Below are positions 1,017-15,355 of a DNA stretch of 64,000 bases, one piece after another. The notes below the pieces were generated by a model. The model saw nothing but the letters and a program-made list of their open reading frames with translations, did not search any database and was not told the DNA's origin. Each line of letters starts with the position of its first letter. The stretch's first letter is position 1. The DNA comes from Laburnicola sp. R22_1 (Eukaryota > Ascomycota > Dothideomycetes > Pleosporales > Didymosphaeriaceae). The position numbers were made by a program, and so were the translations under genes. The stretch is taken from positions 1,726,501-1,790,500 of the forward strand of contig JACONQ010000013.1 in the NCBI GenBank assembly GCA_014281115.1, read 5' to 3'.

Positions 1017-3210
1017 ACATATTCTATTAGTAGCCTAGACAGATTAGTTCACTAAATAGTTTTTCTTAGCAACTTTAAGGTCTCTTATAACTTATTATAA
1101 AACACTACTAACGTTACTTTATAGTAACTTATAATATACTAAGTTACTATTTAATCTACTTTTTATCTTATATAGTCTTTTTACGCAGCTATAGTAGCTA
1201 TATAAAGCTAAGAAGTCTTTCTTAGTAGTATAAACTTATAATAAGACTTTTTATAATATATAATATATTATCTACTATACTATATATAGGTAATATATAG
1301 TATACTTATTATAATATATAGTAAAGCATACTATATCTTAAGTAGTACTTTATTTAATTTTTAGTTACTAAGTGCGTACTATTATAAGATAAAGTTAACC
1401 TATTATTTCTAGCCTTATAGTAATCTATAATAAAATTACTCTAATTTACTATTAACACTATCTAAAAATAAGTTACTAAGAGTAATATCTAACTTTTCCT
1501 CTATCTCTTTATTTATCTAATAGGTTCTTGCGTTGTGTCTAGACTCTCTACACCTCCTATAGCAGCGTTATATTAAGGGACCTACCTTTTCCTTACTACT
1601 ATCTTGCGCTCTTTTTAATAACTTTATCCTAATAGAAGGGCTTTCTACTTCTAAATCTACTTCCTAAGTAAAGCCTAGCGTCCTACCTTTTTAAATGTGC
1701 TTTCTTTTACGCGTTTTTCGCTTTATTAGAATCTTAATTTACTCTTTAAGTTCCTTAATATAGGTCTTTTAAAGTACACTATAATAGAGTATAAGTTTAG
1801 CACCTTTTATAAGCTATAAGTAGCTTAATTTAGTATTAGGTAGAGACTAAATAAAAGAGTTGCATATAAGCTTTAACTAGAATCTAAACTTAAGGGTATT
1901 ACTTAGAGTCCTAGCTTACTATAGTGTATCTAGTAGGGTACCTTAAGGTAGAGTGTAAATATATATATTAAGGCAATTTACTACTACTAATATATTTAAA
2001 AGAATAAGCCTAGAGGCTTTAAAGGCTTTTTTATAGTTTTCTAGTATAAACATATTAAAAAATGTGTTATAAAAGGCTAGTAGAAAGCTCTTTTTGTTAA
2101 TATAAAAGACGCGTTAGTGCGCTAAGTCCTATATATACTAGAAGTACTTTAGTTTTAGTAGCGCAAAATAGACTATATTAAGTAGCTAAAGAATATAAAA
2201 TAAGTGCGCTAGTATATAGAGTGTTAGAATCTTCTATTTTAAGTAATAATTCTTAAAATTCTAGAAGTAGTAGCTCTTATAGCTATTTAGAATAAGTAAC
2301 CTTTATAACCCTACTATACGCGGCCTTATATACGCGTTAAAGTGCTTTAACTACGTAACTCTAAGATTATTATTAGTCTAGCTAGTCTTAGAGACTAAGA
2401 GCTTCTAATTCTAAGGGATACTAGTTTTCTTATACTACGCTAAAATATAGACTTGCCCTTTATAGATAATAAAGGGTGGGATAGTATATCTAGTAGCGCA
2501 AATACTCTAAATTACTATAACCTACTTATAGTTGCCTAGCTAAATAAGGGTAGGTTAAAAATATCTTTCTAAACTAGTTACAACCTTTATTAAGCTAATA
2601 ACTTCTATCTAGAAGCCTATCCTATCAAAGTCATAGATATTTTTATTCTATACTCTATACTTAGCTTTTGTGTCCTTTACTAGCTAAAACTATGCGTTTA
2701 TAATCTCTAGGTCTTTTTGTTATATTCTTTATTAGTCCTTCGCTTAATTAAAAGCTATTTTAAGCTTAGGTACGCGCTTTACAAAGCGCTAAGCCTATTA
2801 TTATTCTATAAAGTCTCTATACTGCGTAGCTAGTAGTTTATTAGCTATATCTTTCACCTTATCTAGCTAGGGTGCAAATTCTTATAAATCTAGGTTAAGG
2901 ATATACTATATAAGCGTCTACTCTTTAGTTATAGTAAGCTTTGCCATGCCTAATTATATATCTACTTAGGCGATAATTTTATTAATTTAATTGCTTAGTG
3001 TAGACTTTAGGATATTACATACTATAGTAGCACGTCGTAGGCTTAAAATTTGCTTATTCTAATAGGCGTAAAGGGCAAGCTTAATTCTATCTTCTTAATT
3101 AGATAATAACATGTTATATTATTAAGACATTATAATTTATAGTAAAGTGTTATAGTCTTAGTAAAAACTATCTAGTAGACTAATCTATCTAGGCTACTAA
3201 TAGAATATGT
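1017..3210 (-). mobile_element. Fot1/Pogo-type DNA transposon Fot1-a
   Basis: Terminal inverted repeats start ACATATTCTATTAG at the left and end CTAATAGAATATGT at the right, and similarity continues for about 60 bases. The flanking TA at 1015-1016 and 3211-3212 is the duplicated target. Removing the element restores the LTR sequence seen at 17080-17110. The internal minus strand encodes a degenerate DDE_1 transposase. Confidence 0.85.
1500..3090 (-). pseudogene. Fot1/Pogo (DDE_1) transposase, RIP-degenerate
   Basis: Read on the minus strand, the order is as in fungal Fot1-like transposases. An N-terminal helix-turn-helix region lies near 2880-3050 (recognisable IPKSTL-like word after allowing for RIP). 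The catalytic block containing NIYDFDRIGF and IPPF-like words sits near 2430-2650. A basic tail is near 1650-1740, and a CCHC-like zinc knuckle near 1550 is now CYRRCRESRHNARTY. In the family these enzymes cut and paste DNA at TA targets. Many TAG/TAA codons stand where Q or W is expected, and the frame shifts, so this copy is dead. It is older or more heavily mutated than Fot1-b. Confidence 0.7.
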
Positions 3211-3289
3211 TATTAATTTAACTAGCTCTTTTAACTATTCTAGCTATCCCTAATAGGTTAGTCCTATAAGGCTGTATACCGCTCTTATA

Positions 3290-3429
3290 TTATTCTAAGA
3301 CTAACTATTTTTATTTAGCTATAGATAGTAATATAATATCTACTCCTTCCTTAAAATACTACCTATAGGTAGTTAAATTAGTAGAAGTTTTACTTTATTA
3401 GTTACTAGTTATACTAGGCAGTTATTATA
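3290..3429 (+). other. G1-A leader, start
   Basis: This matches the sequence after the 5' LTR of G1-B (21742-21840), including a TTTAGCTATAGA word and a CTACTCC tract. It should contain the primer-binding site, but RIP has erased a recognisable tRNA complement. No gene is seen. Confidence 0.6.
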
Positions 3430-3800
3430 CTATACTAAAGTCTATTAAGAGAGACCGCTTCTAAGTCTCTCCTCTACTTATCGTATAAGGGTAGGAACTT
3501 TATTAGTTACTAGGAAGGATCCCTAGTACTAGGAAGTTTATATTTTACTACCTTAAGGTCTATTAAAAGAGGCTACTTCTAAGTTCCTTCTCTACTTAAT
3601 ATATAAGAGTAGAAACTTTATTAGCTACTAGAAAGAATTTCTAGCGCTAAGAAGTTTATATTTTACTACTCTAAAGTCTATTAAAAAAGGCTATTTCTAA
3701 GTACCTCCTTTACTTAATATATAAGAATAGAAACTTTATTAGTTACCTCTATAAAAGACTAGTTTGATAGGTTGCGCTACTATAGTCTATTAAAAGAGAT
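3430..3800. repeat. 118-bp tandem repeat in the G1-A leader
   Basis: The word TCTATTAA recurs at 3441, 3559, 3677 and 3786, giving a unit of about 118 bases in three full copies and one partial copy. Differences between copies are mostly transitions. G1-B carries a different 84-bp tandem repeat in the same leader position. Confidence 0.8.
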
Positions 3801-4010
3801 TGCTTTAAGTTATAGAAGTAGTAGTACTACTTTATACTAGTACGATTAAGACACTACTAAGGCCTATTTAAAGAGGTTAGAATTCTAAGTCTACTAGCTA
3901 CTAGTTATAGCATAAGTAGTAGAAAGTTCTATTAGTTATCTTTATAAGACTTTATACTCTAGTTTAATAGGTAGCACCTAAATCTACTAAAAGAAATCCC
4001 TCTAGTCTAT
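3801..4010. other. G1-A leader, end
   Basis: Degenerate AT-rich leader sequence with a further CCTATTTAAAGAGG word shared with G1-B near 22170. No coding signal is seen. Confidence 0.4.
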
Positions 4011-4450
4011 TAAATAATAATAAATAATAATAAATAATAATAAATAATAATAAATAATAATAAATAATAATAAATAATAATAAATAATAATAAATAATAA
4101 TAAATAATAATAAATAATAATAAATAATAATAAATAATAATAAATAATAATAAATAATAATAAATAATAATAAATAATAATAAATAATAATAAATAATAA
4201 TAAATAATAATAAATAATAATAAATAATAATAAATAATAATAAATAATAATAAATAATAATAAATAATAATAAATAATAATAAATAATAATAAATAATAA
4301 TAAATAATAATAAATAATAATAAATAATAATAAATAATAATAAATAATAATAAATAATAATAAATAATAATAAATAATAATAAATAATAATAAATAATAA
4401 TAAATAATAATAAATAATAATAAATAATAATAAATAATAATAAATAATAA
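4011..4450. repeat. Perfect decamer microsatellite (TAAATAATAA)44
   Basis: Forty-four uninterrupted copies of TAAATAATAA cover 440 bases with no mismatch. RIP mutates CpA and TpG; this unit contains neither C nor G, so the array cannot be altered by it. Confidence 0.97.
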
Positions 4451-6363
4451 TATATTACCTCTAAAGACTAATTCGCCTATAACACCTAACTAGTGTTATA
4501 CTATAAGGGCTAAAGGCACTAAGTAAAAGAAATTAGAATTAGGCTCTAGAGGCGCTATAGCGCTATCTACAAAGATTTTATATAAGTAATACTTTTACTC
4601 TTTTTATAAAGCGCTCTATCTTACTTACTAAGTGCGCTATCTTACACTTATAAAATACTTAGACCTACTAAATCTAAATACCTTACTATGCCTAACTATT
4701 AATCTCTTAGACATTTCTTTTTATTTTCTCTTTATAATAGACGCCCCTTATAAACTACTTAGCTACTTAAAAAACCTAGATACTAGATTACCCTAGCGAT
4801 AACCTTACTAAGTAGCTCTATCTAGTCTACTCTAATCTTTTACTACTCTACCTTACTAAGTAGCCTTATATACTCTACTCTAATCTTTTACTACTTTAAA
4901 CCTTAGTTAAGCTTATATTTAAACTAGGATAGTACTAGTTATAGGAACTTACTCTCTTTGCTGTAACTACCCTAGCTCTTATCTACTATCTATTAAGTAT
5001 TTAGCTAGGTAACTAATTACTAGACTATTAATATTACCTAGCTACCTTCTAGTTTAGCTTAATAATAAATTATAGTTAAATATTTCTATTACAATCCTAC
5101 TTCTACTTTAAACTCGCTAGTAGTTAGCCTTAAAATCTAATAACTCTATACTATTATCTTCTAAAGATTCTAAAATTAACGTATATTAGATAACTCTAAC
5201 TACTCTTTTTAATAATAGAGACTTTAAAGCGGAGCCTAAGCCTAATTACTTTAGCTAACTACTCCCTAGGCTGGCAAATAGGTATAGGTTAGATTGGGAT
5301 TAGGTTCCCTTTAGTCTATAATAACTTTTATAATAACCTTTTATAATAACTTTCTATAATAACTTTCTATAATGATTTTTATAATAATAGCTAATATATC
5401 TTGCAAAAGGAATTTAGGATAGATATTTACGCCTAGATTTTATTTATATATTGCTGCTATAGCGTCTCTCTAGAGTTAAAATTAATAGGCGCTAACAACT
5501 TAAGGTAATAGATAATATCTTAAACTATAAGATTAATAATATAAATAAGATATAGAATTATACTCTTTTAATTCTAGGTAATATTTAAGCAAGATAGAGA
5601 GTTTAGTTACCCTACTAATATTACTAAGAATAGCTGCCTTAGCAGCATTAAATTTATTTAAAAATATCTAGCAGAATCTATATTAGCTAGTTATTACAGT
5701 ATTAGGCCTAAGAAAATAAAGAAAGTGTTAAAAGAATAGTTGCTTTACTATTTAGAAGGACTAGTTATTATTAATTACTATTTATATAAGTTTAGTTTTA
5801 AATACCTATAAAGAGTATATAGAATATAACATAGCTATTTATTTTTTTATACTAAGAAGTAAAAGTTCTTTTATAAATAGGATTATTTTACTATATATAT
5901 ACTTAGAACTTTTATAGTTAATAAGGTACTTAGTACTAATTAGCTAGGTACTAGTAAAGTTAATACTTAGATATTATAGTATATAGCTATAGTTAAGATA
6001 GAATATATATAGATAACTAAAGGAGTACTCTACACCCTTCTAAAATATAGTCTAGATAATATCTATATAAAGATAAGAGTTTTAGTATAGGTAAGAGTTT
6101 TAGTATAGATTATAGGTTTGTTTATCTTTAGCCTATTAAGTATTAGACTACTATATATCCTATATAGCAAATATCTTTTTCTATTTTTAACTCTTAAAAG
6201 TCTAAAGGGGAACGTTAGATAAAACAAATTATCCTACTTTCTAATCTATTAGCCTATAGAGCTAGGATTATATATCTAAAAAGAGTATCTAGTAGTAGAG
6301 TAACTAGTTTATTAATATAGGGCTATATATTAATTTCTAGAGTAGGTGTAGTACTTAATATAG
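4451..6363. other. Unassigned interior of G1-A
   Basis: AT-rich, stop-filled in all frames, with no recognisable domain. It contains an internal near-repeat at 4790-4900 (CTCTAATCTTTTACTACT occurs twice) and, around 5210-5325, one arm of an inverted repeat whose partner lies at 13895-14025. A TAAGAGTTTTAGTATAG repeat occurs twice near 6075-6105. Confidence 0.4.
5210..5325 (+). repeat. Inverted-repeat arm flanking the cargo region (left)
   Basis: AGGCTGGCAAATAG at about 5262 followed by a GTTAGATTGGGATTAGG-like run pairs with the reverse complement near 13895-13978. The match continues weakly outward on both sides, so the exact termini are unclear. The two arms enclose the unknown gene at 8580-9285 and the H3-like gene. 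Confidence 0.5.
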
Positions 6364-6365
6364 TA

Positions 6366-8226
6366 ACGTGTTTACAAGCGAGCTACGAATATAAGTAAGT
6401 TACAAACTCTACTAAGTCTCTAAGCCTTTCGTAGCATATAAATTTATAACGCATTAATATTCTATTAATATAATAGCTATTCTAAATTAAGTAGTATCTA
6501 TAGAAGCCTTCTTACACGTGCGCGAGTTGTGCCCAGGCTCCCTACAGCGCCTACAGCGCACAGAAGCCTGTCGGCTCGCAACTAACTACGCCTTGCCTTG
6601 CTATATTTCTCCCTCTAGTTACTACTTAACAGCCTTTTAAGCAATAATATCCTCTCCCTCTGTCTTTAATAGAATGCCTCGCTTTTAGATCTACTTTTTT
6701 TGCGCTATTTACGCGTTATGGCTGCCTTATTTGCTCTTTATAGAGTAGCTATCTTCTCGCGCATAAGCACTATTAAATGCGCTATTCTTTTAGCGCCTCT
6801 TATAAGCCGATTAAGCGACTGGATAACTAAGGTAGGAGAGGATCCCTAATACCTTTAAATCCGCTTACGAACTAGAGTTAACTAAGCGCCTAGCTCGCGT
6901 GCGTTGCTTAGTATTACAGACTTCTATAGGGCCTCTAGTAGGGCTGCTAGCGCTAGTACTAGCGATGGTGTACAAAGCTTAATATTAAGCTTTAAGAGCA
7001 CTACCTCTAGATCGTGTAGAACTAGTCCAGAGCCTTAAAAGCTTACGTAGATATTCTTCTTTATAATTAACTAGTTATAGGCGGCGCGAAAGGCTAGTAG
7101 AAACTTAAGCTTACTAATATAGTTAATATAGTTGCGTATTAGGCCCTTAACCTAGCGTCTATACGTCCGCTTTAACGGCGAGAAGCAGCCTACGTTAAGT
7201 GGCTATAGAAGATGTAACAAATATAGTAACATATATAGGATATAGATCTTATTCTCCCTATAAATCTCCTAAATTCGAGTGAGTTATGGCTCTTATGGCT
7301 ATTAAGTATTAGGAGCTAACGCGCGCCTACTCTACACTCTACTATATGCTTAATAAAGTGCTATAGCCAGGCAACACTAAGCTTGTTTATAGTCTACCTA
7401 TTATTACTAAGACTAATAGTCTAGTTACTTAGTATATTATTGCCCTTGTACTAGGCTAAGAGGTAGTACTTACTAGTAAAGATAATAAAGGGCAGGATTG
7501 CCCACCCAGTAGCGTTAATTCTGTGGATCGTTGTCACCTACTCACAATTGCCTGGCTAGATCGCTTTTGGCTAACCACATCTCTCTAAGCCTATAACAAC
7601 TAGCTAGAAGAATATCTTGCCTATTAGAAAGCCAGTCTTGTTAAAGTTAAAGGTGTCCTTATTGCAGATACTATAGGTGGCCTTTATACGTACTACTAGC
7701 TCAAACTAGGCCTATATAGCTGTCGGGTCCTTATAGAGGACTTGCTGTCAATTGTAGGCTCGATTAAATCGCGTTATAAGGCTGTCTATTCGCTTAACAA
7801 AGTTTCTAGGCCACTACTAGCCAATATAGCCTATGCTACGCTTAGCGAGCAGCTTATTTGCCATATCTTATAGAGCACCTAGAGTAGGCACAAAGTCTCG
7901 CGAATCTAGGTTAAGTATATGCTTAATAATAACCTCCTCTTCTAGCTTAGTAAGCTTCTTTAATTTAGGCTTATAATTGCGTCGCATAGTAGTTTCAGCA
8001 CGTCGGCTGCGAAGTGTACTTTTAGGAATATTAAACGTCGCTGCAGCGTAATTAACGCTCTAGATCTAATTCTAATTAATAGCTAAGATAGCTAGAGAGA
8101 CATCTGCTTTGTTATAGGGCAATCGAATAAGTGTTAGTTAAGCCATTATAGTTAATAGGTAACGCGTTATAGAAAGTTAGTAGGGTTCGTAGCTCGCTTA
8201 TATTCGCAGCTCGCTTATAAACACGT
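6366..8226 (-). mobile_element. Fot1/Pogo-type DNA transposon Fot1-b
   Basis: The inverted repeats begin ACGTGTTTA at the left and end TAAACACGT at the right; about 55 bases match inward. TA at 6364-6365 and 8227-8228 is the target duplication. The element is 1861 bases long and encodes one transposase on the minus strand. Its GC content and CpA content are visibly higher than those of Fot1-a, so it has suffered less RIP. Confidence 0.9.
6500..8110 (-). pseudogene. Fot1/Pogo (DDE_1) transposase with C-terminal zinc knuckle
   Basis: A nearly full-length Fot1-type transposase can be followed on the minus strand. A helix-turn-helix pair lies at about 7900-8060, with IPKSTLRSRRAE, then KLTKLEEEVIIKHILNLDSR and DMANKLLA. 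The DDE core lies at about 7200-7650 with IHRINATGWAILPFIIF, then a DNGWT-like word (second acidic residue) and ARQLLIL before the expected DGHxSH. The basic tail follows at 6640-6760. Last comes an intact-looking CCHC knuckle, CRRCREPGHNSRTC, at about 6510-6565. Stops are TAG/TAA at Q or W positions. The enzyme would have catalysed TA-targeted cut-and-paste transposition; this copy cannot. Confidence 0.85.
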
Positions 8227-8228
8227 TA

Positions 8229-8579
8229 CTTAAGAGTATTAGCATAATAAAAAAATATAATAACTAGTTAAATAGTTATTTAAGAGAATAGTAGTTTAAG
8301 AAGAGAATAGAATAAACTAAATTCTATAATATTAACTATAGTAGTATTTAACTAATATTAAGGTTAGCTAGAAATAGCGTATAGCGTATAGTGTGCTACT
8401 AATAAGTTAGTTTTAAATCTAGACTAGTATATAGCCCTTTATTATAGAGTTAATTTTAGATAGTAATTAGCTTATTACTATACTACTATAAGTAGTATCT
8501 TTAGCGACTAGTATATAATTATTAGCTATAATAATTAGCTATAGTAAAATTGCAACTCTAGCTTATTTTATCCTATGCG
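8229..8579. other. Unassigned G1-A interior
   Basis: AT-rich with no supported gene. It continues the pre-insertion sequence left of Fot1-b and precedes the end of the minus-strand gene at 8580-9285. Confidence 0.4.
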
Positions 8580-9285
8580 CTAATTATTATCTAAAACCCT
8601 CTTAGCACCTAAGCTTCTCTTATTATCTAAAACTCCCTTATTATTTAAAACCTCTTTAGCACCTAAGCCTCCCTTATTATTTAAATCTCCTTTAGTACCT
8701 AAGCCCCTAAAGTCTAAGAAACCTTTAAAGTCTATATCCTTATTTATAATATTAGAGTTATACCTATTTAGCAGCTTCTAGAAATAAGCTTTAAGCTCCT
8801 TTTTATTATTCTTAATTTTCTCTTTATACTCTTTATTATTATTCCCCTTAATATATACCTTATTGCGATTAAGTATATTATTCTTCCTATAGTTAATAAG
8901 ATTAGTAAAAGGACTAGACTTATAGTAACTAATAATTATTAGCAAAGATATATAATAAACAAGTATAATAAACTTATAACTATTCCTTATTAGTAACTAT
9001 TACTAGCTCCTTAGTAATTAGATCTATATTGCCTACGCTATTATAGAAGTTTTTCTACTTTTTCTTATTAGCCTTAAGCTTTTTTAGGCCTGCCTTATAT
9101 ATATTACGTAAGAGCTTTTTATATATACTACTATAACTAAAGATTTATTTACCTACGCAACTCTATAGTATAGAAGGACCTTTCTCCTTACTAGTAGCAA
9201 TCCTACACTTAGCTAGGGCTACTTAGTAGGCCCTTAAATTAACTTTATTCTTAATCTTATTCTACTTTTTATATATAGCAATTAG
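8580..9285 (-). pseudogene. Unknown gene Z with C-terminal hexapeptide repeats
   Basis: I do not recognise this protein. On the minus strand a lysine/asparagine-rich frame runs from about 9285 and shifts once near 8930. From there it stays open for roughly 110 codons with a single TAG at a likely Q. The C-terminus (8583-8708) is seven hexapeptides of the type L-[GND]-[TNA]-K-x-x, for example LNNKGG, LGAKEV, LDNKRS and LGAKRV, encoded by an 18-bp DNA repeat. The N-terminal part is basic (KVNLRA, KAGLKKLKANKKK). It lies antisense to G1-A, between Fot1-b and a tRNA-like patch. It could be cargo of the same unit as the H3-like gene, or the remains of an unrelated element. Confidence 0.5.
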
Positions 9286-9289
9286 TTAG

Positions 9290-9465
9290 AGGGGCGTATT
9301 ATGGTGGGTACAGGCGTAAGGTCGTATAAGTATAGCAGAAGTCTAGATAGTAAATCTACGCTGTGGTGGGGCACTATAAGCGAGAATTTTAGTCTAGAAA
9401 TAAGCGAAAACTTAGACTTCTTAGCGAGTTCGAATCTTGCCCTCTCCCCCCTTATGGTTTTTAAA
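9290..9465 (+). other. tRNA-like (SINE-like) patch
   Basis: GCGAGTTCGAATCTTGC at about 9424-9440 folds as a perfect T arm with a 7-base loop and resembles an RNA polymerase III B box. An AGTCTA/TAGACT stem lies upstream. I could not pair an acceptor stem, so this is not called as a tRNA gene; it may be the head of a SINE or a degenerate tRNA pseudogene. Confidence 0.3.
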
Positions 9466-9517
9466 CACTAAAAAACTAATCTTTATAGATAAGAAGAAAA
9501 GTAGCCTAAATAAGCTA

Positions 9518-9697
9518 GTATCTCTAATAATTAAGAAATTTCTAACTATTTAAGCTAGTCTTAACTAAGTTACTAGATTAAACTTATAGGATGGGAAAGC
9601 TATTAGCAAGTATCTCTAATAATTAAGAAATCTTTAACTAGTTACTAGTCTTAATAAGTTATTAAGATTTAAACTCATAGGACAAGAAAGTTAATTA
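9518..9697. repeat. 91-bp tandem duplication
   Basis: AGTATCTCTAATAATTAAG recurs at 9518 and 9609, and the rest of the 91-bp unit follows with transitions and small indels. No gene is seen here. Confidence 0.7.
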
Positions 9698-9711
9698 AGG
9701 CATATTACTAT

Positions 9712-9904
9712 CTTCTAATTTAGAAAAAACTTTGTTAGAAATTTCAATTTACGCTTTAGACAGATAATAAGCCACTAGTGTTAGTTTTCCCTTAACCCCC
9801 TTTAAAGGGCTTTTTTTACTAGGGGAAAGTGCCCCTTAACTATCTATATAATTTGCCTGTGGCTGTATTTACTTTATAGAAAATTTAGAAGTAATAGAAA
9901 TGTT
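9712..9904 (+). mobile_element. MITE copy M1 (~193 bp)
   Basis: This matches, inverted, the 196-bp insertion at 51319-51514. It carries the palindromic core CCCTTTAAAGGG and a purine/pyrimidine-rich centre. The flanks ATATTACTAT (9702-9711) and ATATTAGCTAT (9905-9915) look like a ~10-bp target duplication that has mutated. It has no coding capacity. Confidence 0.65.
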
Positions 9905-9994
9905 AATATTAGCTATTAGTTTTGTCTCTAACTAGTTACTTACTTCTTATTAATTAACTAATATATAATAATAAAATATAATAATATACTACTT

Positions 9995-10234
9995 CTCCCC
10001 CAGGATTAATCCGTAATATTACGTAATTCTAGACTGGCTATTTAACCGATCACCGTGTTACATAATCGATAATTTTCTTAACAATATTAACAACAAAATT
10101 ATTATTATTTTGTGTATATTTTATTACTACCACTATATGCTAGGTACTAGGTTTTAGTGCCTTCTATTTTACTCCTCTCTGTGTATAGTGCGGACTCGAC
10201 CCTGGTTAGAATCTCCACACAACGAAGATGTTTA
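9995..10234 (+). mobile_element. Short dispersed repeat, copy 1 (240 bp)
   Basis: The sequence runs from CTCCCCCAGGATTAATCCG to CACACAACGAAGATGTTTA. It is flanked by a 17-bp direct duplication, 9978-9994 and 10235-10251, ending ATACTACTT. It corresponds to the two ends of the ~1.16-kb copies at 15356-16517 and 18173-19342, with their ~930-bp middle absent. The long target duplication fits target-primed reverse transcription rather than an LTR element. Confidence 0.75.
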
Positions 10235-10251
10235 ATAATAATATACTACTT

Positions 10252-10985
10252 TTTTAATTTTTAAAGTAAGACTATATAAGCTCTTCTTCTTTCTATATAA
10301 GCTATTAATACTTTTACACTTTAGAAAGTAGTTAGTAGTTTTTATTAATATAAAACTTCTTCTTAAGCTAATATTATATAGCTTAATTAGCTAATTTAGT
10401 AAAGTTTAGTGCTTTTTTTACTATAAAGTATATTGCAAGACCTCTATATAATAGTATAGGCGCTATTACTAAGTGCACCTTTAAATAGCACTTTATAGTT
10501 AGTAGGATAACCTTTTTAAGAGCTACCTTATCTATAGTATAAAAGAATAGTGCTAACCTCTTTATTTCTAAATATAAAGCCCTATTTATATTAGTATGTA
10601 GTATAATAAAAGGCTATAATTACTAGATATCTTAGTAAGACCCTTCTACTTATCGCGCTTAAAATTTACTAGTATCTATAGGTCGCTACTTAAAAGGTCC
10701 TCTAGAATATTAGAAGACTCTTTTTTAATAAACGCTATAGTATAGGATATAATAATAGTATATAATAACTATAGTTAATATTATAAAGATAATAAAAATA
10801 TTATTATTATTATAAAAAGCAGCTATAGGGGCCTATATATATAAGCGAGACGCTAATAACACTAGTGTATTTTCTTTACTTACCTTACTACCTACTTAGC
10901 TACTCTACTTTACTACTCTCCTAGCTACTTTTTTAATACTTTATAGCTTTAACTACTATATAACCTTAATTTCTAAAATAATAGT
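10252..10985 (+). other. Region upstream of the H3-like gene
   Basis: No gene is recognised. A TATATATAAG word at about 10840 lies roughly 150 bases before the first H3-like codons and could be the old promoter. The rest is AT-rich and stop-filled. Confidence 0.35.
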
Positions 10986-11134
10986 ATATATTAGGCTAGC
11001 TAGATACTCTAAGCTAGTTACTAGCAAATCTTAAGTAAAAAAGAAAAAGCAGCTAGCTACTAAGGCTACGTAAAAGGCGCCTCGCAAATTACTACCTATT
11101 ACGCTAAAAAAGAAGCACTGTTAGAAGCTAGATA

Positions 11135-11185
11135 GTATATTATTATTATAGCTAGTTATTATATATATATTCTAATAATATATAG
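11135..11185 (+). other. Intron 1 of the H3-like pseudogene
   Basis: GTATAT to ATATAG, 51 bases, with a CTAAT branch-like word. It follows KPG; joining A to CT restores T as in the H3 KPGT motif. The boundary is tentative because a one-base loss follows shortly after. Confidence 0.5.
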
Positions 11186-11370
11186 CTATTATACTTAGGA
11201 AATTAAAAAGTACTAAAAAAGTATTAAGCCCCTTATTAGAAAAATGCTATTTTGCTACCTTATTAAGGAAATGGTATAAGATAATAATAAGAAAGATCTG
11301 CGCTTCTAGTCTACTACGCTAGCTGCTCTCTAAGAGGTAATAGAGGCTTTTCTAGTTAGAATATTTAAAG

Positions 11371-11424
11371 GTATTTCTTTATACTACTCTACTCCTACTA
11401 TAAAATAAATACTAATACCTTTAG
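11371..11424 (+). other. Intron 2 of the H3-like pseudogene
   Basis: A 54-base interval starting GTATTT, with a perfect TACTAAT branch site and ending CCTTTAG. Removal joins G to AT, giving the D of the conserved FEDTN motif of H3. Its size and signals are typical of filamentous fungi. Confidence 0.8.
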
Positions 11425-11497
11425 ATACTAATATTAACACTAATTATATAAAATAGGTTACTATATAGGCTAAGAATATATAGCTAGTAGATAGATA

Positions 11498-11608
11498 CAG
11501 TAGGGTGACACAAAAAAAGCGTCTAGTAAAAAGATACCTTTTTAAAGGTTATATAACTAGGTGAGTTTTAATACTATGTAAATAAAAAGTATATCGTTTT
11601 AAGGAGAA
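11498..11608 (+). repeat. Left TIR of Tc1-B
   Basis: It starts CAGTAGGGTGACACAAAAAA and matches the reverse complement of 13505-13616 along its length. Confidence 0.88.
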
Positions 11609-12231
11609 GGTTTAGTAGATTTAGTATAGAAGGTTAGTAAGAGCTTAGTAATCAGCGCTAACTAGAGGTATCTTAGTAAAGTTAAGGAAACTTTTTTTAA
11701 AACTTTGACCCTATATAACTTTTCTTTCTACGTAGATAAAATTCTATAACTTATATATATTATAGTTTAGTCTATCAGGACTGTATAACCGAATTTTCAT
11801 TATAGGTTTATTCATAGCAATAATTATTAAAAGGAAAAAGATAAAAGTTAATTAAAATTAAACAATTAGATAGAACTAGTAAATAATATATAACTAGTAC
11901 TTAGTGTACCATCCTTTAGCCTCTATAACGTCATTATAACGCTTAGACAAAGATAGTATACAATAATCTATAGCCTCCTATGGAATTAAATCCCACTCCT
12001 CTTGTATAGCTCCTTCAAAGGCTTCTACACTAGATTTACTAGTGCCAAAGCCTAAAGAAGCCCTATTTCTTTTTCTTAGCCTATCTTTTAATAGACTACA
12101 AATGTTTTCTATAGGATTTAAGTCTGGTGAATAGGGTGGATGCCCAAAAACAAAGACTTTATTCCTAGAAAACCACCTTTTTACCTGTAGAGTTCCGTGG
12201 AACTTCGAATTATCCTGTTGAAATTTCCAGC

Positions 12232-12340
12232 CTAGTTATAATTAGTATAAAGAATAAGATTATAAAGAATATAATATATGTATATATTATATATAGTAAA
12301 AGAAAAAAGAAAAAAGAAGAATAAGAGGTACTTTACTTAC
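12232..12340 (-). other. Intron 2 of the Tc1-B transposase
   Basis: On the minus strand 109 bases run from GTAAGTAAAG to TATACTAATTATAACTAG. Removal joins KRG to WKFQQDN, placing the catalytic D in frame. Confidence 0.85.
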
Positions 12341-12496
12341 CTCTTTTTAAAAGAGGTTTTAGGATAGGATTTAAACACTCCTATATATATCTAGTATTAT
12401 TAAAGGACCTAGTTTTAATAGGGTCCCTTAAAAACACTAGTTTAGAACGTCCTCCTATCCAAATACAGCCCCAGACTAGGATAGAAATATCTCGCG

Positions 12497-12611
12497 CTTT
12501 TAGTAAATTAGTACTAGCTCAAAAAAAAAGATATAAAAAAAGTAAAATAGCCTAATTATAGTGAAAAGCGGGCTCTATAATTCTAAAATTTAAAAGAAAT
12601 TAATAACTTAC
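12497..12611 (-). other. Intron 1 of the Tc1-B transposase
   Basis: On the minus strand 115 bases run from GTAAGTTATTA to GTACTAATTTACTAAAAG. Removal joins the KSRTT exon to RDISILVWGC in frame, WG being a conserved block in these transposases. Confidence 0.8.
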
Positions 12612-13504
12612 TAGTTGTTCGGCTTTTGCGCTGTTTAGGCCCAATTTTCGATTCTCCCCTTTTTCTTATATATTCTTACCTATCACCATGCCCCCTTTGG
12701 ATAGTAGACTCGTCAGAAAATATAACTTTAGCAAAGTTAATATTTTCTAGCTCCTTAACTATCTCTTTAGCCCAGAATCTTCTTCTTTTAGCTCTTTCTT
12801 TAGTTAAATAGGCCTTTTTCTTAGAGACGTTAAAAGAATAGTCTTCTCCTTTTAAAACTCTCTGTAACGTCCTCTTAGTAAAGCCAAAACTATTTTCTTC
12901 TAATAGCCTCTTATTTGTCCTCTTAGGACTTTTAGTTAAATCTCTATTAATAACTCTTTTCTCTCTAGAAGTAACCTTAGTTACTCTCTCCTGTTTTACC
13001 CCTTTTAATAAGTTATCTCCCTTATTTTTCTTATTAATACGTCTAATAGCAGTCTTAATAGATTGTAGAGGCTTATTAAGAGTAGTAGCAATAGTAGAAT
13101 TAGAAGTATTTACTTTTTTAAGTAAAGAAACTTGACTTTCGAGTTTTGACAATTTTGGCTCCATTCGAGGAAATACAAAAGAGAAAATTTACTAGACAAA
13201 AGATATTATATTATACTATAATCTTAGTAATAAATCACGTGATTTAACTAACTTTTAAAATTACGTGATTGTTTAACCTTGAATAATTTCTTAATTAAGT
13301 TATATAAGTACTTCGAAATTTTGCTTACGTAATCTACACTAGGCCTAGAATAGCTAGTAAAAACATTAGCCTAGTAGCATACTAAATATAAAAGTCATAA
13401 CGCCTTAAAAATTGACTTTTTAGAAATACTAAGTTTAGAGATAGATACCTTAAGGACCCTGCTTAGTAAGCACGTAACTAGTAGCTAATCTTAATCTCCT
13501 ATAT

Positions 13505-13616
13505 TTCCTCTTTAAAACCGTATACTTTTTATTTACATAGTATTAAAACTTACTTAGTTATATAACTTTTATAAAGGTATCTTTTTACTAGGCGCTTTTT
13601 TTGTGTCACTCTACTG
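13505..13616 (-). repeat. Right TIR of Tc1-B
   Basis: The reverse complement begins CAGTAGAGTGACACAAAAAA and parallels 11498-11608. It is followed by the duplicated TA at 13617-13618. Confidence 0.88.
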
Positions 13617-13646
13617 TACTATAAGAAGTATATAGATACTAGATAA

Positions 13647-14454
13647 ATAGTAAGGCGCTTAGTTAGGTTTAATATATATATTTAATACTAAAGCTATACT
13701 TTTACTATAATAAGTAAATGTAATAATTGCTACTATAATAATAAGAGTATTTGTTATAGCAATTTACTATAAAAATTACATATAGCTAATAAAAAATATA
13801 ATTAGTTAGACCTAATATAACCTAGTCTATACAACTCTAACCTAACCTATAGTCTATGCAACTCTAACCTAACCTATACCTATTACTAGCGCAAAATCCA
13901 TAGGTAGAGGTTAGGTTGGAGTTAGGATTTTATAGAAGGAAATCTAACCCAACCAAACTTATATCTATTTGCCAGCCTAAGTAGAAATATAATTAGGGAT
14001 TAAAGGCATAATCTCGCTACTTAAACAATTTAAAAGGTTATAATAGTTAAGTTTATAATAGCTAATAAGCAATCTATAAAGTTATTAAATTCTAATATAG
14101 GGGAGGATAATTTAGAGGATATAGCACTATTAGATAAGAGGAATAATTTATATAAGTTACTAGCTAATAAGAAAACTATTAAAACTATATAAGGTTTTAA
14201 GGTTTTAGATAGCAAGCTACTAACTTCTTTCTACTAGGGGCAACCACTATAAAAGTGGTTAAGACCTTAGCGCTACTATAGCGTTAGTAATAATATAATA
14301 TAATAAATATATATATTAATAGCAAAATAGCGTTACTTTTACTTTTACTTAAATTTCTTTTCTTATATACCTTTAAAGAGTAACTAAAGTTACTAATCTT
14401 ATTAGTATTAATTTTATATAATATAAGTTACGCAACCCTAATAGGTACCCTAAT
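13647..14454. other. Downstream of the H3-like gene
   Basis: No gene is supported. CTCTAACCTAACCTATA-type words recur at 13800-13890, and the right arm of the inverted repeat (GCCAGCCT near 13975) lies here. A 61-codon minus frame at 14030-14215 has no recognisable feature. Confidence 0.4.
13895..14025 (-). repeat. Inverted-repeat arm flanking the cargo region (right)
   Basis: The reverse complement starts AGGCTGGCAAATAG and continues with TTGGTTGGGTTAGATTTCC, pairing with 5262-5325. Weak matching also extends outward past the GCCAGCCT word. Confidence 0.5.
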
Positions 14455-14605
14455 CTAACCTACACCTAGAAGTCTATATAACCTAACCTAACCTATACCT
14501 AGGGTCTATACAACCTAACCTAATCTATACCTAGGGTCTATACGACTCTAACCTAACCTATACCTAGGGTCTATACGACTCCAACCTAACTCTATATCTA
14601 AGCTA
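14455..14605. repeat. 33-bp minisatellite with CCTAAC-like words
   Basis: CTATACCTAGGGTCTATA recurs at 14493, 14525 and 14558 (period 32-33), with an earlier degenerate copy near 14460. Each unit contains AACCTAACC. Confidence 0.8.
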
Positions 14606-15355
14606 GGTACCCTGAACCCATTTACTAGCCTACTACTCTCTACTATCTTTTTCTAGCTATTACTAGAATAGCTAGATACGCTAAAAGATACCTAATCTAG
14701 TAAGAACTATAGTAATTACACTAGAGAAGAGGCGCTTAATAAAGAATAATCTTTATAAACATAGTATTACTTACTATAATAATAGCCTAGAAAATAATAA
14801 TACTACCTATTATAGTAGTAGATTAAAAGATAAAGAGCCTGCCTATTATAATAATCTTCCTAATAATAACTCTAAATTTACTAATCTAATTAACTCTAAG
14901 TCTAACTCTCTATAAAATAAATACTTAGGCAATAAATCTAATAGTAAACTACCTAATAAAATCTCCTAAATTAGTAATAATTAGAAGCTGTCCTCTAACT
15001 ATTAGCTCTTACTCTAATCTACTAGTTATCTAACTTATTCTACCCCTAAGGACACTCTAAGCTACTAAAGTGGGTAGCCTAGTTTTCTACTAGTTAAATA
15101 GCTTTCTAGCTAGCCTACTATATATAGGCACCTATTACTTTTAGCACCCTTACTTCTAGCTATTCCCTTCTTAGCTAGCTTATTACTAATTTAGTAGCTT
15201 TCTAACTATCGCGCGTGTAGGGTACCTTTTAGCACCTCTACTTTACTACGCTAGTAGTTTCTATAGCTTTGTAAGCTACCTTGCCCTAATTAAAAACTAT
15301 ATAGTTAGGTTAATATATTTTTTAACACTCTTTTATAGTACTAAAGAATATTATT
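14606..15355 (+). other. Asparagine-rich coding-like stretch and start of G1-A 3' region
   Basis: From about 14690 to 15000 one plus frame reads as low-complexity N/S/K-rich protein (YNNSLENNNTT, YNNLPNNNSKF), with no domain. From about 15230 the sequence matches the G1-B 3' region near 29160 (CTAATTAAAAACTATATAG). Confidence 0.4.

Follow-up and report, generated by a model that had tools for sequence, protein, structure and literature searches.

In the window, by which we mean the whole stretch of 64,000 nucleotides analyzed here (contig JACONQ010000013.1 of the ascomycete Laburnicola sp. R22_1), a decayed histone H3-like gene, here named H3L, occupies positions 10981-11497 and 13619-13646 and contains two GT-AG introns. 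The gene belongs to a multi-copy transposon of the hAT type, designated H3L-hAT, in which one pair of inverted repeats encloses both a hAT transposase and the H3-like gene. All copies of the gene that were found bear the marks of repeat-induced point mutation (RIP).

The genome (63.9 Mb in 26 contigs) was searched with the Pfam histone profile PF00125, and 88 matches were obtained. Of these, 81 are degenerate and H3-like, so that, with the window gene included, at least 81 copies are distributed over 20 of the 26 contigs, and in-frame stops can be observed in every one of them. The other seven matches represent six stop-free genes that were identified by sequence reading as H3, CENP-A (two exons), HAP5, H2A, H2A.Z and H2B, the name HAP5 being additionally backed by a protein search. 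In that search, the best named relatives of the host HAP5 come from Paraconiothyrium brasiliense (91%) and Byssothecium circinans (89%), in the company of other Pleosporales and of some unnamed proteins with equally high scores. On the evidence of this single protein, the host is assigned to the Pleosporales and thereby falls outside the Mycosphaerellaceae discussed below. According to our reading, the introns of the host H3 gene (L001) interrupt the codons for R8 and Q120, and neither of them is shared by H3L.

Structure of the H3L gene

The exon-intron structure was fixed by an alignment of the window copy with 18 others and subsequently by an alignment of 61 of the 81 degenerate copies, namely 20 copies read with 5 kb on each side, 40 short ones and the window copy. 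The resulting coordinates are listed in Table 1. The column of the start codon (10981-10983) reads ATA in 53 of the 61 copies, as is expected of an ATG struck by RIP. The length of exon 1 varies around a run of A and is 154 nt in 24 copies, and exon 2, which has lost one base in the window copy (185 nt), is 186 nt long in 50 copies. For intron 1, the donor GT is present in 48 and the acceptor AG in 57 of the 61 copies, and the length is exactly 51 nt in 46 of them. Intron 2 has a donor GT in 47 copies and the branch-point string ATACTAATA in 46; it is exactly 54 nt long in 43 copies and shortened to 36-38 nt in eight. Splicing restores the sequences KPGT|(V/I)xLR and FKD|TN (FED|TN in the host H3) with an unchanged number of residues. 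When the protein encoded by exons 2 and 3 was compared with the genome, many loci matched in two separate pieces, a split that is predicted by an intron between the two exons.

The spliced read-through protein aligns to the host H3 from the initial MART through the end of the histone fold. It has a divergent tail and, in loop 1, one residue more than the host protein; with Met counted as residue 1, A replaces G at position 91 and F replaces Y at position 100. The position of K4 is occupied by R in all 17 copies that are in frame, and by K in one further copy (L012). RIP converts G into A and does not act in the opposite direction. A second form of the N-terminal tail, similar to TRLFKHTKAATS, was observed in three copies (L018, L025 and L071), which suggests that at least two H3L-hAT subfamilies existed before RIP.

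An initial annotation of this DNA, made from the sequence alone, had recognized most of these features. The H3-fold blocks it named are present in the window sequence, and the alignments bear out its two introns, including the one that restores the FEDTN block, as well as the Tc1 element in the last exon and the longer loop 1. Its gene limits were correct nearly to the base, except that the true start lies about 9 bases before position 10990, where the gene had been taken to begin.

Table 1. Features of the H3L gene, its carrier element and the nested insertions in the window.
Feature	Position	Strand	Remarks
Left target-site duplication CTACTCCC	5259..5266		End reading
H3L-hAT 3' terminal 45 bp, reversed, left end of composite	5267..5311	-	Comparison with copy X23
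H3L-hAT plus-oriented block with H3L, approximately element 1757-5668 without 1995-2251	5339..13979	+	Ends in the 3' terminal inverted repeat
Nested pogo/Fot1-like element	6364..8227	-	DDE_1, terminal inverted repeat ACGTGTTTAYAAGCGAGC, TA duplication
Nested 0.6-kb insertion	9288..9911		Direct repeat of about 10 bp; SINE-like by reading
Nested 0.24-kb insertion	9995..10234		15-bp direct repeat AATAATATACTACTT; SINE-like by reading
H3L exon 1	10981..11134	+	Divergent N-tail up to KPGT; start codon column ATA; copy alignment
H3L intron 1	11135..11185	+	51 nt, GTATAT...ATATAG; donor and acceptor across 61 copies
H3L exon 2	11186..11370	+	Alpha-N to FK; 1-nt deletion in window copy; PF00125 match C5:1737696-1737869
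H3L intron 2	11371..11424	+	54 nt, GTATTT...TACTAATACCTTTAG; splice and branch signals across 61 copies
H3L exon 3, first part	11425..11497	+	DTN...VTIQAK..QL.DRY; alignment
Tc1-like insertion in H3L exon 3	11498..13616	-	Terminal inverted repeat CAGTAGGGTGACAC, TA duplication, remains of DDE_3 transposase
H3L exon 3, second part	13619..13646	+	TAA stop at 13644-13646
Element positions 652-1, reversed, right end of composite	13980..14632	-	Includes the hAT transposase region at its C-terminal end
Right target-site duplication CTACTCTC	14633..14640		7/8 identical to left

The hAT element and its copy in the window

The limits of the element were determined by blastn comparisons among the copies. 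The same element sequence surrounds H3L in all 20 copies that were read over 5 kb on either side; 15 of these can be aligned as far as the 3' end, whereas the outer limit on the 5' side was read from three copies and the window. The complete element measures 5,668 bp in copy X23 (L029+L023). Its terminal inverted repeats (TAGGCTGG... / TAGGCTGGCAAATRGGT / TAGGCTRGYRAATRGRT) are present at both ends and match over about 17 bp, the 5' end reading TAGGCTGGTAAATGGGT... and the 3' end ...TATTTGCCAGCCTA. For the 3' end, 41 near-full matches with 91-98% identity were found in the genome (40 of 232 candidates scored). Target duplications of 8 bp could be read in the three insertions in which both ends were available: TTTATTAT in copy L028 (8/8 identical), YCTATTAC in copy L023 (7/8) and CTACTCYC in the window composite (7/8); for L022, the remaining long copy, no 3' end was recovered.

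The hAT dimerisation domain PF05699 scores above the Pfam cut-off in the read-through of two copies, L023 and L022, with E values of 6e-6 and 2.6e-7, at element positions 581-814 and on the strand opposite to H3L; it was not found in L014 in the single frame tried. DUF659 (PF04937) gave no match in the genome and none in the control genomes either, which leaves that search uncontrolled. With 8-bp target duplications, short inverted repeats and a transposase containing PF05699, the carrier of H3L is a hAT element, and the constant flanks, the hAT ends and the target duplications confirm the earlier proposal of a cargo histone spread by an element.

The association of the two genes was also analyzed starting from the transposase. 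A 600-residue read-through of the transposase region gave 103 match rows in the genome (73 of 452 candidates scored), and all the rows listed contain stops. We entered 72 transposase loci, the other 31 rows being judged by eye to be additional parts of these loci. An H3L match lies within 20 kb of 47 of these loci; the two genes are in the same divergent order at 45 of them, 20 of which show a distance of 3.7-4.3 kb. The proximity expected by chance is about 5% under an even scatter, a figure that is too low if all the loci lie in AT-rich blocks.

In the window, the element is present as a composite (5267-14632), which is flanked by a single target duplication and has both outer ends. Element positions 653-1756 (about 1.1 kb) and 1995-2251 are missing, and the last 45 bp are present twice (Table 1). 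We infer that the composite was produced by an internal inversion during repair. Four insertions are nested in it, and RNA-polymerase-III-like boxes were noticed by eye in the two smaller ones. ARAGORN called no tRNA between 5000 and 15000; therefore, the description of these two insertions as similar to short interspersed elements (SINE) is based on their direct repeats and appearance alone.

Several further features of the element were observed. Telomere-like TTAGG repeats and a palindrome of about 70 bp (centre CTTACGTAAG) lie just inside the element ends, at 13810-13979 and 14449-14632 of the window, and are possibly subterminal repeats bound by the transposase. A 13-bp tandem repeat (TTTCTATAATAAC) is located inside the element, from position 1221 in oriented L014, with longest exact runs of 27 units in L014, 14 in L017, 8 in L024 and 1 in L023. 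Between the transposase and H3L, the longest stop-free runs of X23 fall at about 3376-4398 (about 3305-4327 in L023) on both strands, with 92 codons on the plus strand (3514-3789) and 70 codons on the minus strand (4189-4398); they could be remains of a central open reading frame like that of the Pyrenophora tritici-repentis element discussed below. No Pfam domain other than that of the transposase exceeded the cut-off in the element frames scanned. Elsewhere in the genome there are at least 150 matches to the hAT dimerisation domain (150 of 340 candidates scored), many of them in long stop-free frames and with identical scores, which perhaps represent recent bursts that escaped RIP despite the strong RIP activity in this genome.

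Decay of the copies and origin of H3L

The decay of H3L has the pattern of RIP. Of the 153 in-frame stops counted in the 17 in-frame copies, six columns with Gln in the host H3 account for 88 and R116 for another 17, whereas an even scatter over approximately 137 codons would place about 7 stops on the six columns (a plain count, in which related copies are not independent). Such a clustering is the mark of RIP acting on CAA/CAG and CGA codons. The dinucleotide indices point in the same direction, TpA/ApT being 1.80 in the element and 0.75 at the host H3 locus, and (CpA+TpG)/(ApC+GpT) being 0.33 and 1.10, respectively. The G+C content of the element is 0.28, and in the alignment of the copies transitions greatly outnumber transversions (2817 versus 468 cells). 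The polymorphism of dinucleotides (42 of 216 YA columns versus 62 of 170 YT columns) is uninformative on the dominance of RIP, because the CpA sites are almost exhausted. The earlier view of H3L as a RIPped, multi-copy gene was right.

Taking these data together, we consider it very probable that H3L is part of a hAT transposon of the autonomous type, about 5.67 kb long, which was spread by its transposase and afterwards killed by RIP. This element consisted of the inverted repeats TAGGCTGGCAAATRGGT, the telomere-like subterminal repeats, the hAT transposase on one strand and, in divergent orientation near the other end, H3L with its two introns. While active, it was inserted by its transposase, with 8-bp target duplications, in at least 81 and probably more places; RIP then inactivated all the copies that were found, and the one in the window was subsequently broken up by other transposons and by a rearrangement. 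H3L itself would have been transcribed and spliced to give an H3-type histone used by the element, e.g., to loosen or mark the chromatin over itself, and would thus have been more than dead freight.

It is important to mention the observations that weigh against a gene maintained in this way. Only 17 of the 61 copies are complete and keep the reading frame from exon 1 to exon 3, the remaining 44 having gaps, insertions or frame shifts, often at the A-run of exon 1. No stop-free H3L was found among the matches listed in the protein search with exons 2 and 3, which are part of 213 (150 of 190 candidates scored), the only stop-free row listed being the host H3. Singleton transversions in the 61 copies number 35, 38 and 33 at the three codon positions (147 sites each) and 27 of 105 in the introns, and those common to at least three copies number 11, 3 and 3 at codon positions 1, 2 and 3; owing to the absence of a third-position excess, there is no within-genome sign of purifying selection on H3L, and the copies have decayed neutrally after insertion. 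The acceptor of intron 2 is AG in 23 copies and AA in 24 of the 61, and RIP accounts for AA only if the CpT context is also struck. Part of the divergence of H3L from H3 is itself RIP damage, and at 25 of the 72 transposase loci no H3L match was found closer than 20 kb.

An alternative is passive transduplication, in which a hAT element once took up an H3 transcript or a piece of the gene, the histone sequence merely hitch-hiked and RIP killed all the copies. We regard this origin as conceivable, with a probability clearly below even. The stops in all 81 copies and the neutral decay are in line with it, the absence of the host H3 introns is what a retrocopy predicts, and the same process was inferred for Pseudocercospora fijiensis by Dhillon et al. 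(2019, PMC6710886), which also counts against a maintained gene. However, two introns found in H3L are its own, and their splice and branch signals are good. It differs from the host H3 at about 47% of the fold, in part through RIP, and yet 105 of the 153 stops lie on only seven Gln/Arg columns. Moreover, H3-like genes carried by hAT elements are known from two further groups of fungi, and the H3L of P. tritici-repentis is described by Manning et al. (2013, PMC3538342) as having expressed sequence tags (ESTs) and as fitting neither H3 nor CenH3 completely. Because of the introns, of breaks that are largely RIP-type stops despite a protein divergence of about 50%, and of the occurrence of hAT-borne H3-like genes elsewhere, a maintained gene of the element is favoured over a one-off retrocopy. 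The positions of the introns, absent from the host H3, suggest a long-lived, element-borne histone gene; the introns may have been gained after capture, or the source gene may have had other introns, and both would fit a long life in the element.

Relationship to host histones and to known elements

In order to place H3L among the histones of the H3 type, the 17 in-frame copies were compared with the host proteins, leaving out stops and including RIP damage. The mean identity over the fold is 53% to the host H3 and 42% to the host CENP-A. The two host proteins differ at 28 fold positions, at 25 of which an H3L residue is aligned; 14 of these residues are H3-like, 4 are CENP-A-like and 7 are neither. 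With this identity and its divergent tail, H3L departs from the near-invariant sequence and tail of a canonical H3. A CenH3 variant spread by an element is very improbable. The extra residue in loop 1 and the F in EAFLV, as in CENP-A, would agree with it, but the identities and the 14 versus 4 positions point to H3, the DLRFQS block is kept where the host CENP-A has TRWQS, and the published H3L of P. tritici-repentis also falls in neither group (PMC3538342). The CenH3-like character proposed in the initial annotation is therefore poorly supported, and the CenH3 identity was rejected.

The phylogenetic tree was built with 31 rows, comprising eight of the 17 in-frame copies, the host proteins and a total of 21 hand-picked proteins, whose named fungal members beyond the host are from Tilletia and Villophora, and was rooted at the midpoint. 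The eight H3L rows are monophyletic (100/100) and lie outside a group of the host H3, CENP-A and 20 others (98/96). Owing to the few hand-picked rows, the midpoint root and the RIP-lengthened branch of H3L, the tree cannot name a donor. A recent duplication of the host H3 locus, later struck by transposons, would explain the H3-like sequence and the MART start of the less damaged copies, but it is refuted to near certainty by the at least 81 copies, which have the flanks of the element and the ends of a hAT transposon, by the different intron positions, by the 53% mean fold identity and by the long separate branch in the tree. Neither of the two findings that the initial annotation had named as refuting its reading, a lack of other genomic copies and a tree position as a recent duplicate of the host H3, was obtained.

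In the PDB comparison, the best 60 rows are H3s whether H3L or the host CENP-A is the query, and the two are therefore not separated. A profile made of seven read-through copies (7989 candidates scored) gave 172 H3-type matches, the best 120 of which are mainly plant, animal and unnamed metagenome proteins and include no recognisable fungal relative of H3L; the top matches, a plant double H3 and a plant H3, were dismissed as ordinary. With a single read-through copy as the query, three of 42 candidates matched at E <= 1e-10; two of them are H3-like proteins without a name and the third is a rodent H3.3-like protein. The protein search is word-based and can miss relatives, and its negative results are weak evidence.

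The association of an H3-like gene with a hAT element, which the initial annotation had considered undescribed, was already reported for two other fungal groups. In P. tritici-repentis, a hAT element of about 5.6 kb contains a transposase, a central open reading frame and H3L, the latter with ESTs and in 26 near-identical, mostly intact copies (PMC3538342). By the published description, that element and the one analyzed here are alike in combining a transposase and an H3-like gene between inverted repeats, in their size (about 5.6 and 5.67 kb) and in having a host of the Pleosporales. They are unlike in their condition, since the 26 copies there are mostly intact and expressed, whereas here at least 81 copies all contain RIP-type stops.

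The second group comprises six species of the Mycosphaerellaceae, P. fijiensis, P. eumusae, P. musae, Cercospora zeae-maydis, Sphaerulina musiva and S. populicola, in which RIP-killed hAT elements with H3-like sequences were described (PMC6710886). These elements share with H3L-hAT the inactivation by RIP, the AT-richness, the high copy number (135-784 there), the 8-bp target duplication and the absence of the host introns; their inverted repeats are likewise short, with 18-20 bp compared to about 17 bp here. The P. fijiensis element differs in being about 9.5 kb long and reported as intron-less, and in containing the H3-like sequence once or twice and the DUF659 domain only, whereas H3L-hAT has 5.67 kb, one H3L, the dimerisation domain and two introns. 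Those authors concluded that an intron-less transcript had been captured and left a 16-residue insertion in the second H3-like copy unexplained. The two introns of H3L conflict with such a retrocopy origin. Our guess is that the insertion is an intron like intron 2 of H3L, whose 54 nt correspond to 18 codons.

A broader and rather doubtful extension of the maintained-gene reading would make H3L a standing component of an old Dothideomycetes hAT lineage, i.e., an intron-bearing variant without the H3K4 site that altered the chromatin over its own copies and so resisted silencing; the insertion in the Mycosphaerellaceae would then be an intron of this gene family that was misread. If the same introns are present in the intact, expressed H3L of P. 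tritici-repentis, the idea of a histone variant that is encoded by a transposon and may counteract silencing can be tested directly; if they are not shared, H3L-hAT is another case of RIP erasing an amplified gene. The two introns absent from the host H3 are a concrete ground for doubting a passive retrocopy origin.

Fungal DNA transposons carrying TET/JBP dioxygenases (PMC12730594) are a further known system for comparison. They are likewise Class II elements, hAT among them, with a chromatin-related gene beside the transposase; in contrast to H3L-hAT, that gene encodes an enzyme and not a histone, and the element lineages and hosts are different. In the literature searched, hAT-borne H3 was recognised in PMC3538342 and PMC6710886 only. 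The association itself is therefore known, and what H3L-hAT adds to it, as far as that literature shows, is another host lineage and the two introns.

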